Part shown: in pieces, positions 550 to 9,558 of the stretch | Numbering within the stretch: the first letter of the stretch is position 1 | Layout of the letters: each line of letters begins with the position of its first letter | Origin: Chloroflexota bacterium | Lineage (GTDB): Bacteria; Chloroflexota; Anaerolineae; Anaerolineales; Villigracilaceae | Assembly: GCA_016191895.1 (NCBI GenBank) | Contig: JACPVD010000080.1 | Location: 1-10,040 of the forward strand | Length of the DNA: 10,040 nt | Reading direction: 5' to 3' | Notes under the pieces: generated by a model | What the model was told of the DNA's origin: nothing | Database searches by the model: none | The model's input: the letters and a program-made list of their open reading frames with translations, nothing else | Made by a program: the position numbers and the translations under genes

Positions 550-1744
<1,195 letters not shown>

Positions 1745-1745
<1 letters not shown>

Positions 1746-2257
1746 TGAACAAACGACGCTTCTTCGCAATCACGGATATCGTATTCATCATCGCCATTCT
1801 TACCGCCGCCTGCGGAGGAGGCGCCGCGCCGGAGCCGCAACAAACACAGGACGCCGGCGCGCCCGTGCTTTTCGATGCGGCAGGCGATGCCGCTTTAAAT
1901 CCCTCCAAGCCGCACATTGTCCGCGCAAGGTATGTCACTGTGGATCTGTCCATCCTGCTCGATGAGTCGGGAACGCCCCGCGCCCTGCCGGCAGGGACGG
2001 AGATCACGCTAAACCTCTTTCCAGACATCGTTTACACCGCCGTGATCGATAAAACCGATCAAAGCACGCCGGGCAGTTTTTCATGGGTTGGACATCTCAA
2101 GGATGTCGAATTCAGCGAGGCGATTCTCATCTATTCCGGGAATATCTTCATCGCCCATGTTGCCAGCCCGGCCGGGGTGTACGAAGTGTCCATTTCAGAC
2201 GAGGATCTGTATCAGGTCATACAGATCGATCAGTCGAAACTTCCGCAGGATCAATAG
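1745..2257 (+). CDS. Lipoprotein consisting of a free-standing metalloprotease prodomain
   Basis: A 170-residue probable lipoprotein. A basic N-terminus (NKRR) and hydrophobic segment (6-22) lead to LTAAC with Cys23 as the likely lipidated residue; Thr at -3 and Asp11 within the hydrophobic stretch are slightly unusual. After a linker (24-38), the rest matches the prodomain of the protease encoded just downstream: VRARYV (59-64) against VRSRYV, LNLFPD (89-94), FIAHVAS (135-141) and QIDQSKLP (160-167). Residues 85-167 align without gaps to 85-167 of the protease with 48 of 83 identical. No peptidase domain or zinc motif follows. It probably acts outside the membrane. By analogy with autonomous propeptide-like protease inhibitors it may inhibit, fold or tether the neighbouring protease; that role is inference. 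It lies 72 bases upstream of the protease and is likely co-transcribed from the promoter at 1710. A truncated duplicate without function is the alternative. Confidence 0.85.
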
Positions 2258-2329
2258 AAAGGAGGAATGCCAGCCACCTTATCGGTTTTTGGTTCACAAT
2301 TCGATAAAACCATACTCGGAGGTAAAACC

Positions 2330-4180
2330 ATGAAAAGCAAATTATCATTTCCTTTAAGCGCCCTGCTTATCCTGGCGTTGCTGGCGTCATTCCTGCCCGG
2401 TAGTGCCGCAACAGCGCGGGCGCAAACCAATGACGCGCCCCAATTATTCAGCGATGCCGGCAGCGCGCAACCCGCCTTCAAACATGCGCCCAGCCGTTCC
2501 GTCGTCCGTTCGCGATATGTCGCCGTAAACATCGGGACATTGCCCAGCCAGGATGCAATCGCCCGGAAAGCGGGAAGCGGATACGAGATCGAACTAAATC
2601 TATTCCCGGATGTCGCCTATACCGGGGTCATTGATCGCGTTGCGCAATACACCCCAACCAGCACATCCTGGACCGGGACTCTCAAAGGCAGGGAACTCAG
2701 TTACTTCTACCTTGTCGTATCCAACGGGACGTTCATCGCCCATGTCGCATCACAGGATGGAATTTACGAAGTGTCCTCGGCAGGTAATGGCGTGTACCGG
2801 GTAACTCAGATCGACCAATCCAAACTCCCGGAAAAAGACGACATCCGCATACCACCGGCGAGTCTCCTCAATAACACAGTTGCACCCAATTCCGCGGCAC
2901 TGCCGGACGACGGAAGCGTCATCGACGTGATGATCCTCTACACGCCCGCCGCCCGCGCCGCGGAGGGCGGAACTGCCGCCATGGACGCCCGTGTGGATCT
3001 TGCCATTACAGAAACCAACTCATCCTATACCAGCAGCGGTGTCGTGCCCACCATGAGTCTTGTTTACAAAGGCGAGATCAGTTATGTCGAATCGGGGGAT
3101 GAAGGCACGGATTTGGACAGATTGACCGCCACCAGCGACGGATTCATAGACACTGTTCACACCCTGCGCGACACCTACGGCGCAGACCTTGTTCAATTGA
3201 TCGTGGAGACGGGCTCCGGGTGCGGGATCGCCTGGTTCATGAGTACGGTGGACGCTTCATTCGCATCCGGCGGATTCTCCGTTGTCATCCGCGACTGCAT
3301 GACCGGCAACTATTCTTCCGGGCATGAGTTTGGACACAACCAAAGCGCAACTCACGATACTTATGTAGATACCGGGACATCCCCCTACCCCTACATTCAC
3401 GGTTACGTTAACCTTGCCGCGAGATGGCGCACGGTGATGGCCTATAACACTCAATGCGCCGATACCGCGCCTGGCACATATTGCACCCGCCTGTTGTACT
3501 GGTCCAACCCGACCAAACTCTATGGCGGCGCGGCAATGGGCGTAACTTCATCCTCTGAAAATTACAAGGTGTTAAACAACACGGCTTATACGGTGGCCAA
3601 CTTCCGTTCAGCCACGACTCCTTCGCTCTTCGCCGACGTGCCTTCCACCTACTGGGCGGCGGATTTCATCGAGCGGTTGTATAACGCCGGCATCACCGGC
3701 GGATGCGCCACCGGCCCATTGAGATATTGCCCCGAAGCCAGCGTCACCCGCGCGCAGATGGCGATCTTCATCCTGCGCGGCATACACGGAAGCGCGTACA
3801 TACCTCCCGCAGCAACAGGCGTTGTATTTAGCGATGTGCCGGCCGGTTACTGGGCCGCCGCCTGGATCGAACGCCTCTCCGCAGAAGGAATCACCGGCGG
3901 ATGCAGCGGCACGTCCTACTGTCCAGAGGCAAACATCACCCGCGCCCAAATGGCAATCTTCCTCCTGCGCGGCAAATATGGAAGCGCATACGTGCCACCG
4001 GCCGCCACTGGCACGGTATTCACCGATGTGCCGGCCAGTTACTGGGCCGCCGCCTGGATCGAACGCCTCTTCGCAGAAGGCATCACCAGCGGATGCAGCG
4101 GCACGTCCTACTGCCCTGACGCAAACGTCACACGCGCTCAAATGGCAGTCTTCCTTGTGAAGACATTCAGCCTGCCGTAG
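2330..4180 (+). CDS. Secreted metzincin-type zinc metalloprotease with prodomain and three SLH-like repeats
   Basis: A 616-residue exported peptidase. Order: signal peptide (1 to about 32, ending near ARA-QTN); prodomain (about 35-170, with RYV 62-64, LNLFPD 89-94, QIDQSKLP 160-167); catalytic domain (about 196-425) opening with VIDVMILYTPAAR; three SLH-like repeats (about 432-616). Zinc motif HEFGHNQSATHD (332-343) gives ligands His332, His336, His342 and catalytic Glu333; the Met-turn is Met370 in RTVMAYN. This is the reprolysin-like (M12B/M72-like) pattern, except that the usual glycine of HExxHxxGxxH is Ser339. Repeats begin near Asp436, Asp502 and Asp566, each with GC...YCP and TRAQM. 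I chose the ATG at 2330 because GGAGGT (2318-2323) stands 6 bases before it and a signal peptide starts there; the earlier in-frame ATG at 2267 has AAAGGAGG only 1 base away and would bury the signal. It probably acts at the cell surface; activation likely requires prodomain removal. A terminator follows. Confidence 0.92.
   Translation: MKSKLSFPLSALLILALLASFLPGSAATARAQTNDAPQLFSDAGSAQPAFKHAPSRSVVRSRYVAVNIGTLPSQDAIARKAGSGYEIELNLFPDVAYTGVIDRVAQYTPTSTSWTGTLKGRELSYFYLVVSNGTFIAHVASQDGIYEVSSAGNGVYRVTQIDQSKLPEKDDIRIPPASLLNNTVAPNSAALPDDGSVIDVMILYTPAARAAEGGTAAMDARVDLAITETNSSYTSSGVVPTMSLVYKGEISYVESGDEGTDLDRLTATSDGFIDTVHTLRDTYGADLVQLIVETGSGCGIAWFMSTVDASFASGGFSVVIRDCMTGNYSSGHEFGHNQSATHDTYVDTGTSPYPYIHGYVNLAARWRTVMAYNTQCADTAPGTYCTRLLYWSNPTKLYGGAAMGVTSSSENYKVLNNTAYTVANFRSATTPSLFADVPSTYWAADFIERLYNAGITGGCATGPLRYCPEASVTRAQMAIFILRGIHGSAYIPPAATGVVFSDVPAGYWAAAWIERLSAEGITGGCSGTSYCPEANITRAQMAIFLLRGKYGSAYVPPAATGTVFTDVPASYWAAAWIERLFAEGITSGCSGTSYCPDANVTRAQMAVFLVKTFSLP
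3833..4152 (+). repeat. Near-identical 192-bp-period repeats encoding SLH units 2 and 3
   Basis: The stretch from 3833 and the stretch from 4025 (192 bases, 64 codons apart) differ at only about 11 positions over roughly 130 bases, including long identical runs across the YWAAAWIERL and CSGTSYCP coding segments. The first SLH unit (from 3635, 66 codons earlier) is much more diverged in DNA. This points to a recent duplication or gene conversion of the last two units. Confidence 0.85.
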
Positions 4181-6837: not shown

Positions 6838-7566
6838 TCAATGGATCGTCCCATGCGCCAGTTCCACGATCTCGTCTTTTGTTTCATACACCCGCACAAG
6901 TTTGCCATCCTGCATCTGCAGAACACGATCGACGAACTGGCACATGCGCAAATCGTGAGTCACCATGATGCCCGCGCGGCCATTCTCATGGATAAGGTGC
7001 GCGAAAGTTTCCACCACTTGAAACGCGCGTTCGGTATCCAGCGACGCGGTCGGCTCATCGGCCAACACGACAGCAGGATTGTGAATCAACGCCCGCGCGA
7101 TCGCGACTCGCTGCTGTTGCCCGCCCGACATTTGCGCGGGAAGATTATGCAAACGTTCCGACAACCCGAGGCGGGCCAGCAGTTCCCCGGAGCGAAGTCG
7201 CCCCGCATGCGTCAACCAGCCATTCAACCGCAGCATAAATTCCACGTTCTCCTGCGCCGTAAGATAGGGAATTAAATTATTCGATTGAAACGTAAACCCG
7301 ATCTTCTCGCGGCGGAGTTTTACGCGCTTCTTTTCGTTCATCTGTGAAAGGTCCTGCCCATCAATGAGAACTTGCCCCGATGTGGGTGTAAGGAGCGCGG
7401 CCAAAATCGAAAGCAGGGTGGTTTTTCCCGAACCGCTCGGCCCCACCAGCGCGACGAATTCACCGGACTTGACCTGAAACGACACGTCGTCCACCGCGTT
7501 GATGGTCGCTCCATCCAGCGTAAATGATTTGACGAGATTGCGAACTTCCAAAGCAATTGAATTCAT
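6838..7566 (-). CDS. ABC transporter ATP-binding protein (MacB/LolD-type)
   Basis: A 242-residue cytoplasmic ATPase that would drive the permease encoded just upstream. All nucleotide-binding motifs are intact: Walker A GPSGSGKTT (42-50), Q-loop Gln94, signature MSGGQQQR (146-153), Walker B VVLADE with Glu171 (166-171), D-loop SLD (175-177) and His204. The sequence belongs to the LolD/MacB/DevA/FtsE group, whose partners are FtsX-like permeases working by mechanotransmission rather than as ordinary importers. I chose the ATG at 7566; a TTG at 7581 in the same frame adds only EKNK-type residues and lies at the edge of an inserted repeat. Only a weak GGA precedes the ATG. The gene is last in the operon, 156 bases after the permease stop, but about 135 of those bases belong to the inserted element. 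It is followed by the shared terminator. Confidence 0.96.
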   Translation of the reverse strand: MNSIALEVRNLVKSFTLDGATINAVDDVSFQVKSGEFVALVGPSGSGKTTLLSILAALLTPTSGQVLIDGQDLSQMNEKKRVKLRREKIGFTFQSNNLIPYLTAQENVEFMLRLNGWLTHAGRLRSGELLARLGLSERLHNLPAQMSGGQQQRVAIARALIHNPAVVLADEPTASLDTERAFQVVETFAHLIHENGRAGIMVTHDLRMCQFVDRVLQMQDGKLVRVYETKDEIVELAHGTIH

Positions 7567-7580
7567 TTTGTTTTTTTCCA

Positions 7581-7720
7581 ATTATCAGTAGATCGCGAAT
7601 CTATACCGGATTGCGGACGCTTGCTGGCGGTTCGTCTTTTGCTCACCGTATCGAAACGTCAGTCCGCTTTTGCCGAGCAAATTGCAGACTGAAGTCTGCA
7701 ATCCGTGACCTACTGATTAT
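7581..7720. mobile_element. 130-bp MITE-like palindromic element with 5-bp target duplication
   Basis: The direct repeat ATTAT (7581-7585 and 7716-7720) directly flanks inverted ends: CAGTAGATCGCG (7586-7597) against the complement of 7704-7715, CAGTAGGTCACG, 10 of 12 identical. Inside are a second inverted pair (CGGATTGCGGAC 7607-7618 with 7694-7705, 11 of 12), TTGCTC/GAGCAA (7639-7644, 7675-7680), and a perfect palindrome ATTGCAGACT-GA-AGTCTGCAAT (7681-7702). No open frame of note is inside. It sits 2 bases after the permease stop codon, within the operon. Removing it with one ATTAT leaves a gap of 21 bases between permease and ATPase. Confidence 0.65.
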
Positions 7721-7722
7721 AA

Positions 7723-8883
7723 TTATCCCAACCGCAACGCCTTCAATGGCTCGATGCGAACCGCGTAAATGATCGACACCATGCCGCCAAGCGGACCGAT
7801 GAACAATAACAGCAGAATGGCGATCAATGACCTCGTCCCGTTGAATTCCAGGGGAATGGCCGGTGGCAGCCCCAGAGAAAAGAGATAATTCAACGCCGCG
7901 CCGATTCCCACACCCATGGCCGTCACTACAATGATCTGAATCACCGCCGCAAGACCAACCACAAAGTTCGACGAGCCAATGGCCTTCAACACGCCGATCT
8001 GCGGAACTTTTTGCAAAATTTGAATTTGAAAGAATCCGCCGATGACAAGGATGCCGATCAACAGGGTGAACGCGCCCTGTGTTTGCACCGTGCCCTGCTG
8101 GGCGGTATAGCCGGGGATGTTGTTGATGGTCGTTTCGATATCCGCCACCTCGATGTTCGACACTTCATTCACCAGGCGAAGTTTCACTTGTTCCAGTTGT
8201 GCGAGGTCTTTCAACTTGACCGCGATAATATTTGGATAAGGCGTGTCGCTGTTGAGATCGGATTCAGGTTGGGGACGGACCAATTCCCATGTGGCAGCCG
8301 GGACGAAGATCGTGGGTTGGAAGAAATATGCCTGTTCCGCCACCAGCCCGACGATTTTCAACGTATAAAACTCATCTTCCGTTCCCTGCGTGGAGCGGAG
8401 TTCGATCTCATCGCCGATCTTCAAGCCGGTGCGCTCGGCAACGCTGGCATCCATCACCGCTTCGCGCGCCTCACCGCCGCGGAAGTAACGTCCCTCCAAA
8501 AGCGGAGGCATGCCGGGGCGCTCCGCTTCCGCGCCAAGCAGGGAAATTTTCTGCGGCTCCGGCAAAGAGACGATTTCAGAGTTGGATGTATAGATGGCCC
8601 CCGCATCTTCCACACCCTCCACGCGGCGGACGGCTTTGACGGTGTTCGTTTCGAGCCGGCTGGCGGTGATGCTGTAATCGGACTTTTCGAGGAAGACGAT
8701 CAGTTGCGCGTCCAGATTCGCCACATATTGACGATTGGCATTCGAAAGCCCTTCGCCTAGCGCGGCAATGAACAACACCAGAACAGTGATCAACGCAATG
8801 ACCAGCGCGACCAGCGTAAAACGTCCTTTATTACGAAAGACTTCTTTCACGGCAAGATAGGTTGCAAGAAAAATATTTTTCAT
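7723..8883 (-). CDS. ABC transporter permease, MacB/FtsX-like
   Basis: A 386-residue membrane protein with the typical FtsX/MacB topology. TM1 is at about 21-43; a large extracytoplasmic MacB-PCD-like domain covers about 45-265; three more membrane segments lie at about 270-291, 306-335 and 352-374. The conserved cytoplasmic loop VPQIGVLKAIGSS (293-305) and the C-terminal RIEPLKALRLG, which contact the ATPase in this family, are visible. The start at 8883 is only 4 bases after the stop of the redox gene, with GGTGGT 8-9 bases upstream as a moderate ribosome binding site inside that gene's last codons. This indicates translational coupling. The partner ATPase is downstream. Relatives act in lipoprotein extraction, macrolide or peptide export, or cell-division signalling; which applies here cannot be read from sequence. 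No membrane-fusion (adaptor) gene is in the window, as expected for a monoderm envelope, although the gene could lie elsewhere. Confidence 0.93.
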   Translation of the reverse strand: MKNIFLATYLAVKEVFRNKGRFTLVALVIALITVLVLFIAALGEGLSNANRQYVANLDAQLIVFLEKSDYSITASRLETNTVKAVRRVEGVEDAGAIYTSNSEIVSLPEPQKISLLGAEAERPGMPPLLEGRYFRGGEAREAVMDASVAERTGLKIGDEIELRSTQGTEDEFYTLKIVGLVAEQAYFFQPTIFVPAATWELVRPQPESDLNSDTPYPNIIAVKLKDLAQLEQVKLRLVNEVSNIEVADIETTINNIPGYTAQQGTVQTQGAFTLLIGILVIGGFFQIQILQKVPQIGVLKAIGSSNFVVGLAAVIQIIVVTAMGVGIGAALNYLFSLGLPPAIPLEFNGTRSLIAILLLLFIGPLGGMVSIIYAVRIEPLKALRLG

Positions 8884-8887
8884 ATTT

Positions 8888-9487
8888 TTATACCACCGGC
8901 TTTGTATCGTACGGCCGATTCCAATCGACGCCCATAATGCCGCGCAGAATCAAGTCTACGGGCGGGTGATCGGCGATATCTTCATAATAATACGGCAGGC
9001 GGATTCGCCCATCCATGCCGACAATGAATGTGCCGGACATTTGGTAGGCATCCTGCCCGGGAAAGGGGACGCCGGGCTTATATCCTTTTACCTGCGCCAG
9101 CCTGCGATTGGAGAGCCAAATGCGCGGCGAGAGTAACGTCTGCCAGGCGGTTCCCCGGTACAAGCCATAGGCGCGATATGCCGAACGGTCGGGATCGGCG
9201 AGACAGGTGGCGCCGGGAGCGCGTTGATCGCAAAAGTCCTTTGCAGATTCGGCCGAGGCGTGGGAAACGATCGCAAGCCGGAGCCCGCTTTCGGTCAGGG
9301 CTTGATGCGCATCGATGAGTTGATCCACCATTTCCTTGCATTGCGGGCATCCAAAATGGCGGGTGAAGGCCAGCACGAGAACTTTATCCACCCAAAGAGA
9401 GGAGAGTTTCATCGGCCTGCCATCGGCTCCCAACACGTTTGCATCGGGAGCGGGGTCGTTGAATTTGAGATGGGGTTGTTTTGTCAT
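8888..9487 (-). CDS. AhpC/TSA-type peroxiredoxin-like redox protein
   Basis: A 199-residue thioredoxin-fold protein. Visible: HLKFNDPAPDANVLGADG (6-23), the usual peroxiredoxin N-terminal strand region; LAFTRHFGCPQCKE (39-52) with Cys47 and Cys50 as a CPQC pair; LADPDRSAYRAYGLYRG (96-112), a hallmark of the AhpC/TSA-2 group; and SGTFIVGMDGRIRLPYYYED (151-170), typical of the closing strands. The CxxC at the peroxidatic position, rather than the classical TxxC motif, fits the peroxiredoxin-like (PRXL2/AAED1-type) families, where the activity may be thiol reduction rather than peroxide removal. I chose the ATG at 9487, which has AAGGA 3 bases upstream. The longer frame from 9547 would place its start within the preceding terminator hairpin and add a hydrophobic-basic segment not expected in the family. 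No signal peptide with this start, so it is probably cytoplasmic. It is first in the operon with the permease and ATPase. Confidence 0.88.
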   Translation of the reverse strand: MTKQPHLKFNDPAPDANVLGADGRPMKLSSLWVDKVLVLAFTRHFGCPQCKEMVDQLIDAHQALTESGLRLAIVSHASAESAKDFCDQRAPGATCLADPDRSAYRAYGLYRGTAWQTLLSPRIWLSNRRLAQVKGYKPGVPFPGQDAYQMSGTFIVGMDGRIRLPYYYEDIADHPPVDLILRGIMGVDWNRPYDTKPVV

Positions 9488-9522
9488 GATTCCTTTTTTG
9501 AATAGGAAAAAAAAATTTGCCC

Positions 9523-9558
9523 AAAAAATCCGCGCCTGCATCGGCACGGACTTTTTTT
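9523..9558 (-). terminator. Intrinsic terminator after the SDH-type proteinase gene
   Basis: On the minus strand AAAA-G-TCCGTGCC pairs with GGCGCGGA followed by TTTTTT, with a 6-base loop. The stem is continuous through two G-U wobbles, which on the plus strand would be mismatches, so it is oriented for the minus-strand gene ending at 9588. It separates that gene from the redox/ABC operon. Confidence 0.8.

Follow-up and report, generated by a model that had tools for sequence, protein, structure and literature searches.

Free-standing propeptide domains are known in principle from PepSY lipoproteins (PMC4282423), and partner proteins encoded next to a metzincin protease are known from BamI (PMC4334185) and CpaB. 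CpaB is described as a membrane-anchored protein whose gene adjoins the CpaA gene, which is required for CpaA secretion and whose C-terminal tail blocks the CpaA catalytic site, as in zymogens (PMC7542363, PMC4713064). BamI of Pseudomonas aeruginosa is described as encoded next to mep72, binding Mep72 and relieving its toxicity in E. coli (PMC4334185), and PepSY as a propeptide domain of M4 peptidases that is also found free-standing in membrane-associated proteins proposed to restrain enzymes (PMC4282423). Here, we analyze a two-gene locus of a Chloroflexota bacterium, located on a 10,040-nt stretch of contig JACPVD010000080.1 (GCA_016191895.1, forward strand; hereafter the window, to which all unlabeled coordinates refer), in which the gene of a small lipoprotein stands directly upstream of the gene of a secreted metzincin protease.

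Results

The window lipoprotein is homologous to the prodomain of the adjacent protease. A first-pass annotation, made from the sequence alone, had aligned residues 85-167 of the two proteins without a gap, and we confirmed this alignment (48 of 83 residues identical; exact when the protease is numbered from the start at 2330), together with the blocks LNLFPD, FIAHVAS and QIDQSKLP that the two proteins have in common, the lipobox-like Cys23 of the lipoprotein, which sits in ILTAAC, and the lack of a peptidase domain, with 0 Pfam families matching the lipoprotein at E <= 1. The best local alignment comprised 152 residue pairs, 75 of them identical, and scored 317, against a mean of 35 (sd 5.3, maximum 62) in 1000 shuffles. 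Of 74 identical residues, 33 are encoded by the same codon, and agreement at third positions is 36%, a divergence that indicates an old duplication. A recent duplication or an assembly artefact was rejected, because the codons have diverged and the pair recurs in other genomes.

The lipoprotein comprises a signal peptide with the lipobox, a linker, the fold and a short acidic C-terminal tail, with its stop codon at 2255-2257. The structure model shows an all-beta prodomain fold over about residues 41-166, with low confidence in the linker up to about residue 40 and, unlike in-cis metzincin prodomains, no catalytic domain in the same chain. Fold searches revealed that the lipoprotein shares its fold with metzincin prodomains (ADAM17, profragilysin) and with CpaB (PDB 6O38), the closest being CpaB, the membrane-anchored chaperone of the metzincin CpaA in Acinetobacter. 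Fold searches alone succeeded in this respect: sequence searches of the PDB with the stand-alone alignments, the protease alignment and the relative P0020 returned nothing useful, and the first protease query retrieved S-layer chains through its SLH part plus a few weak others. The CpaB model NF033512 gave no match to the window lipoprotein at E <= 1 and matched 3 of 45 relatives, the best being P0020 (identified by single scans of 20 of the 45) with E 0.0026 and 17.8 bits against a 90-bit cut-off.

Source names of the Chloroflexota lipoproteins, where present, read just "hypothetical protein". PF27177, a more recent Pfam entry, has precomputed matches both to lipoproteins, the window's own included, and to some proteases (P0001, P0007, P0065, P0139 and others among the two kinds), so the domain seems already to have been modelled by others. 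A match to the NCBIfam model "invert_tail" was disregarded, as it occurred in 3 of 45 relatives, fell below the cut-off (E 0.01 for the window protein) and covered the signal peptide and lipobox end. An acidic residue follows the last strand in 40 of 49 sequences by regular expression, and the nine others have one near the end by eye; acidic residues are common, and we gave this count little weight.

The pair recurs well beyond the window. Among the 152 genomes of the window's family, a first search retrieved 25 at E <= 0.001, of which a profile search retained 12 as carrying the domain, 7 of them with a stand-alone copy. Most first-search matches weaker than about 1e-5 were rejected, as they cover the query's signal-peptide end alone, and a match in genome G137 (E 1.5e-4) that spans the query proved, by sequence, to be another lipoprotein with a similar start. 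Wider samples of the order (400 genomes), class (396) and phylum (400), each including some family members, added three stand-alone copies, one in another family of the order (G257) and two in one further family of the class (G706 and G657), with no additional copy in the phylum-level sample; these counts are lower bounds, since the best 8 candidates per genome were scored (the best 23 in the family profile search). No additional stand-alone copy turned up in the families of G257 and of G706/G657 (24 and 14 genomes searched).

All ten genomic stand-alone copies, which span three families, lie directly upstream, on the same strand, of a gene whose product combines this prodomain with an HExxH site, at a spacing of 28-148 bp by mechanical starts. 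Every copy carries the lipobox Cys by eye and none has an internal stop. The proposal of a conserved two-gene pair of protease and anchored prodomain was thus borne out, and two contrary outcomes that we looked for, a lipoprotein confined to one strain and one common in the absence of any protease, were not seen at the loci whose context was visible. The partner had been expected to be an SLH-metalloprotease; the metalloprotease is indeed present in 10 of 10 cases, whereas the SLH anchor is not constant among the partners scanned, of which the window's and P0054 carry SLH, G150's and P0067 carry 3keto-disac_hyd, and G657's carries Ig-like domains. The genes around the pairs mostly differ by eye, with neighbourhoods common to G150 and G114 and to G028, G032 and G033.

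The protein database yielded two lists of 15 and 52 matches (ids to 52 overall), some of which are protease fragments, and 43 entries were kept as stand-alone-like, including the window's own and a few that are N-terminally incomplete. Seven of these copies are paired with a prodomain protease (P0002/P0054, P0009/P0132, P0018/P0103, P0019/P0112, P0021/P0108, P0026/P0100 and P0028/P0067), an identical size of the longest contig being taken as the same contig. On contigs of at least 4 kb outside the ten genomes, 7 of 14 stand-alone copies pair with a protease and 7 do not; the unpaired seven say little, because 120 of 939 proteases were among those listed. Entries P0047, P0048, P0049 and P0051 are distant stand-alone copies, the first two without an obvious lipobox. 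The partner proteases P0100, P0108, P0132 and P0103 end in PGxELxGG-like C-termini, faintly like the PGGEG tail of the lipoproteins, which may be chance.

To place the copies in their history, we built a tree of the domain (101 rows over 120 columns, few for so many rows, and a bootstrap not fully settled). Twenty-five window-clade proteases group together (100/98), with the clade's 30 lipoproteins outside that group, which points to one old duplication in that clade; a further protease, L126, whose branch is very long, is loosely placed on the window clade's side. The lipoproteins of G706, G657 and their relatives are placed elsewhere, among other proteases, as is that of G257. A single clade of all 41 stand-alone rows was rejected by the approximately unbiased (AU) test (p-AU 5.5e-6, under a model without gene conversion), so that either detachment occurred at least twice or the copies have been homogenised. 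The main-clade proteases (24 rows) are at least 80% conserved at 32 columns; at 23 of these, 60% or more of the 30 main-clade lipoproteins carry the same residue. Between G150 and G114, the lipoprotein has a ratio of nonsynonymous to synonymous substitution rates (dN/dS) of 0.15-0.21, obtained by two methods, and the protease one of 0.19-0.23.

Secretin (PF00263) was found in 0 of 10 pair-bearing genomes, which are 62 to 98% complete (the window's own 67%), and in 6 of 14 control genomes; Omp85 was found in 0 of 10 and 7 of 14, respectively. These counts make a role in type II secretion unlikely, and we infer that the cell has one membrane, with the lipoprotein on its outer face.

The window protease, numbered from ATG 2330, comprises a signal peptide (residues 1-31, by eye), the prodomain, a catalytic domain (about 194-427) and three SLH repeats, with Pfam matches to Reprolysin_3/4/5 and SLH repeats (Table 1). 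H332, G335, H336, H342 and D343 are invariant across a 51-row alignment. The mechanical start at ATG 2267 (637 aa) was rejected in favour of ATG 2330, because the GGAGG within the intergenic gap is then well spaced, a signal peptide follows and the residue numbering matches; the other GGAGG (2261-2265) lies just one base before ATG 2267. The best NCBIfam score of the catalytic domain was obtained with Mep72 (NF052434; 93 bits over residues 197-431, cut-off 645), and the CpaA model also matched, likewise far below its cut-off. The lipoprotein and protease genes, on the same strand and closely spaced, are probably co-transcribed. No terminator-like site was found on the + strand of the gap, which is not evidence by itself, and a promoter-like site at 1710-1738 was no better than shuffle expectation.

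Table 1. Coordinates of the gene pair and its neighbours in the window
Feature	Position	Strand	Basis
Stand-alone prodomain-like lipoprotein, 170 aa	1745..2257	+	Open reading frame, alignment to protease, lipobox, model and fold match
Intergenic gap, 72 bp, containing GGAGG at 2318-2322	2258..2329	+	Sequence
Secreted metzincin protease, 616 aa	2330..4180	+	Open reading frame, domain scans, model
In-cis prodomain of the protease (about residues 32-170), homologous to the lipoprotein	2423..2839	+	Alignment; E 3.8e-35; same strand order in both models
Zinc site HEFGHNQSATHD, protease residues 332-343 counted from ATG 2330	3323..3358	+	Sequence and alignment
Surface protein, 661 aa	4779-6764	+	CSLREA, choice-of-anchor Q domains, Chlam_PMP repeats
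Presumed tRNA-guanine transglycosylase	565-1683	-	Label by eye
Presumed ABC ATPase and FtsX/MacB-like permease	6838-8883	-	Labels by eye
Presumed AhpC/TSA-like protein	8888-9547		Label by eye

The 661-aa surface protein ends, by eye, in Cys-containing repeats that resemble the SLH repeats of the protease, with no SLH match in the Pfam scan. Elsewhere, G028 (L098, 3310-11886) carries a cluster of three prodomain metzincins and one lipoprotein, two of the proteases lying in tandem behind the lipoprotein. In G959 (L132, 2-11447), a 313-aa piece is flanked by two large prodomain metzincins, the second of which bears LRRs; this 313-aa domain protein was set aside, as it resembles part of a third LRR protease broken by a frameshift.

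Discussion

We hold, with moderate confidence, that the lipoprotein works in trans as a prodomain tethered to the membrane, and that it would assist the folding of the adjacent metzincin and block it near the membrane. This reading starts from the observed homology, conserved pairing, lipobox and fold; lipidation, binding, inhibition or chaperoning and a role of the tail would then be expected. The lipoprotein would be exported by Sec, lipidated at Cys23 and displayed on the outer face of the cytoplasmic membrane, where it may bind the catalytic domain of the adjacent metzincin as this emerges, or after the in-cis prodomain has been cut off. Until the protease leaves for the wall or the medium, the lipoprotein would support its folding and cover the active-site cleft, the short acidic tail at the C-terminus of the lipoprotein lying close to the zinc. 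Such action would resemble that of CpaB on CpaA, except that no type II secretion was detected in these bacteria and that the protease retains a prodomain of its own.

More tentatively, and with slightly less conviction than an even chance would carry, we suggest that metzincin prodomains have detached repeatedly, at least twice in Anaerolineae-type Chloroflexota and with CpaB as another case, and that the detached copy serves as a zymogen lock that acts in trans and can be used again. The in-cis prodomain would work a single time; after its removal, the tethered copy could still hold any mature protease near the membrane, which would protect the cell while the enzyme works further out. The proteases of G032 and G033 (L102, 939-2900; L103, 5735-7696), identical in their domain rows of the tree and set in a neighbourhood resembling the three-protease cluster of G028, have a zinc site altered to HQFGH...GARDD and no lipoprotein. 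Judged by this sequence, the enzyme is probably dead, a pseudo-enzyme, and the missing lipoprotein fits an inhibitor role, but it represents a single event.

Several observations weigh against a trans-acting prodomain. We read 46 prodomain proteases in context, leaving aside the two of LRR type in G959. A lipoprotein gene stands directly before 10 of them and is missing from that position in the other 36, so the lipoprotein is dispensable for many relatives. The 36 include G109 (at a contig edge, nothing upstream visible), G321 (just 548 bases upstream), G030 (5' end truncated), the altered proteases of G032 and G033 and, in G028, the protease that follows the pair in tandem; rescanning these loci at higher sensitivity revealed no additional stand-alone copy. 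G070, of the same family, has a protease with an intact zinc site and no lipoprotein. The in-cis prodomain is already present in the protease, so the lipoprotein copy could be redundant. Distances of lipoproteins and of partner catalytic domains correlate (r 0.86 over 17 pairs; 0.66 for 14 main-clade pairs), as is expected for co-inheritance, and shared ancestry alone would give the same; the partner's own prodomain is nearest to the lipoprotein in just 2 of 17 pairs, leaving no sign of pair-specific matching at the prodomain level. Finally, the sequence link to CpaB is weak, because the NF033512 search of the ten pair-bearing genomes picked out no lipoprotein; a weak match (E 0.285) lay elsewhere in G150, and sub-cut-off matches in 5 of 14 control genomes mark such matches as common noise.

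Among the alternatives, a pure folding or export chaperone, which would aid folding outside the membrane without blocking the active site and leave latency to the in-cis prodomain alone, is unlikely but fares best. The closest fold is that of CpaB, described as required for CpaA secretion (PMC4713064), and the in-cis prodomain could already give latency; however, the same CpaB is reported to occlude the active site, and the in-cis prodomain would normally give folding help too. The lipobox in 10 of 10 genomic copies, and partners without SLH repeats for which another hold on the enzyme could be useful, would suit a surface tether that binds the active mature protease at the membrane without blocking it. 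The window protease, however, already has three SLH repeats and a prodomain homologue is expected to bind over the cleft, and we rate this explanation as improbable. Slightly less credible still is a copy that no longer acts on its partner and serves a different purpose, with foreign or other proteases as conceivable targets, its adjacency being a relic of tandem duplication. The main-clade duplication is old, most lipoproteins have a prodomain other than their partner's as the nearest one, and tandem duplication alone creates adjacency once; yet adjacency has lasted through deep divergence in mostly different surroundings, extends to stand-alone copies that fall in more than one clade, and is accompanied by the retention of 23 of 32 conserved main-clade protease columns in main-clade lipoproteins. 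A decaying, functionless duplicate would suit a short gene that is absent next to most protease relatives read in context, but is very improbable given the intact reading frame and lipobox of all ten genomic copies, the low dN/dS between G150 and G114 and the spread over three families.

Our search of the literature, by titles and abstract openings, found no paper describing the Chloroflexota lipoprotein/protease pair. As far as that search shows, the pair, the retention of an in-cis prodomain beside a detached copy and the repeated detachment are new, as is the link between the CpaB fold and the metzincin prodomain sequence family, on which the 6O38 structure paper may already remark. If a tethered prodomain does act in trans here, the locus would show how a bacterium in which no outer-membrane machinery was detected shields its surface from its own protease, and would offer a small, testable pair of genes for comparing the action of a prodomain in trans and in cis on one enzyme.

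Set against known systems, the zymogen prodomains of metzincins (ADAM17; profragilysin of Bacteroides) act in cis and are cleaved off, whereas the lipoprotein is a separate gene product with a lipobox. PepSY (lipoprotein SspA; YpeB) is similar in being a propeptide domain that also occurs alone in membrane-associated proteins, but it belongs to the M4 peptidase family and not to the metzincins, and the Pfam scan of the 45 relatives gave no PepSY match at E <= 1. With Mep72/BamI, the locus shares an adjacent partner gene and a catalytic domain that scores best with Mep72; BamI, by its published description, differs in being partly natively unfolded (PMC4334185). CpaB is held by a transmembrane helix whereas the Chloroflexota lipoprotein carries a lipobox, with predicted lipidation; its gene is reported downstream of cpaA whereas the lipoprotein gene lies upstream of the protease; and it serves type II secretion, whereas no secretin was found in the 10 pair-bearing genomes and the Chloroflexota partner retains its own prodomain. 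The lipoprotein has the same anatomy as CpaB, with an anchor, a linker, the prodomain fold and a short tail, and its gene adjoins a metzincin protease gene in 10 of 10 genomic copies. Collectively, the finding ties together ADAM-like cleavable prodomains, the Gram-negative chaperone CpaB and Chloroflexota lipoproteins hitherto named "hypothetical protein".
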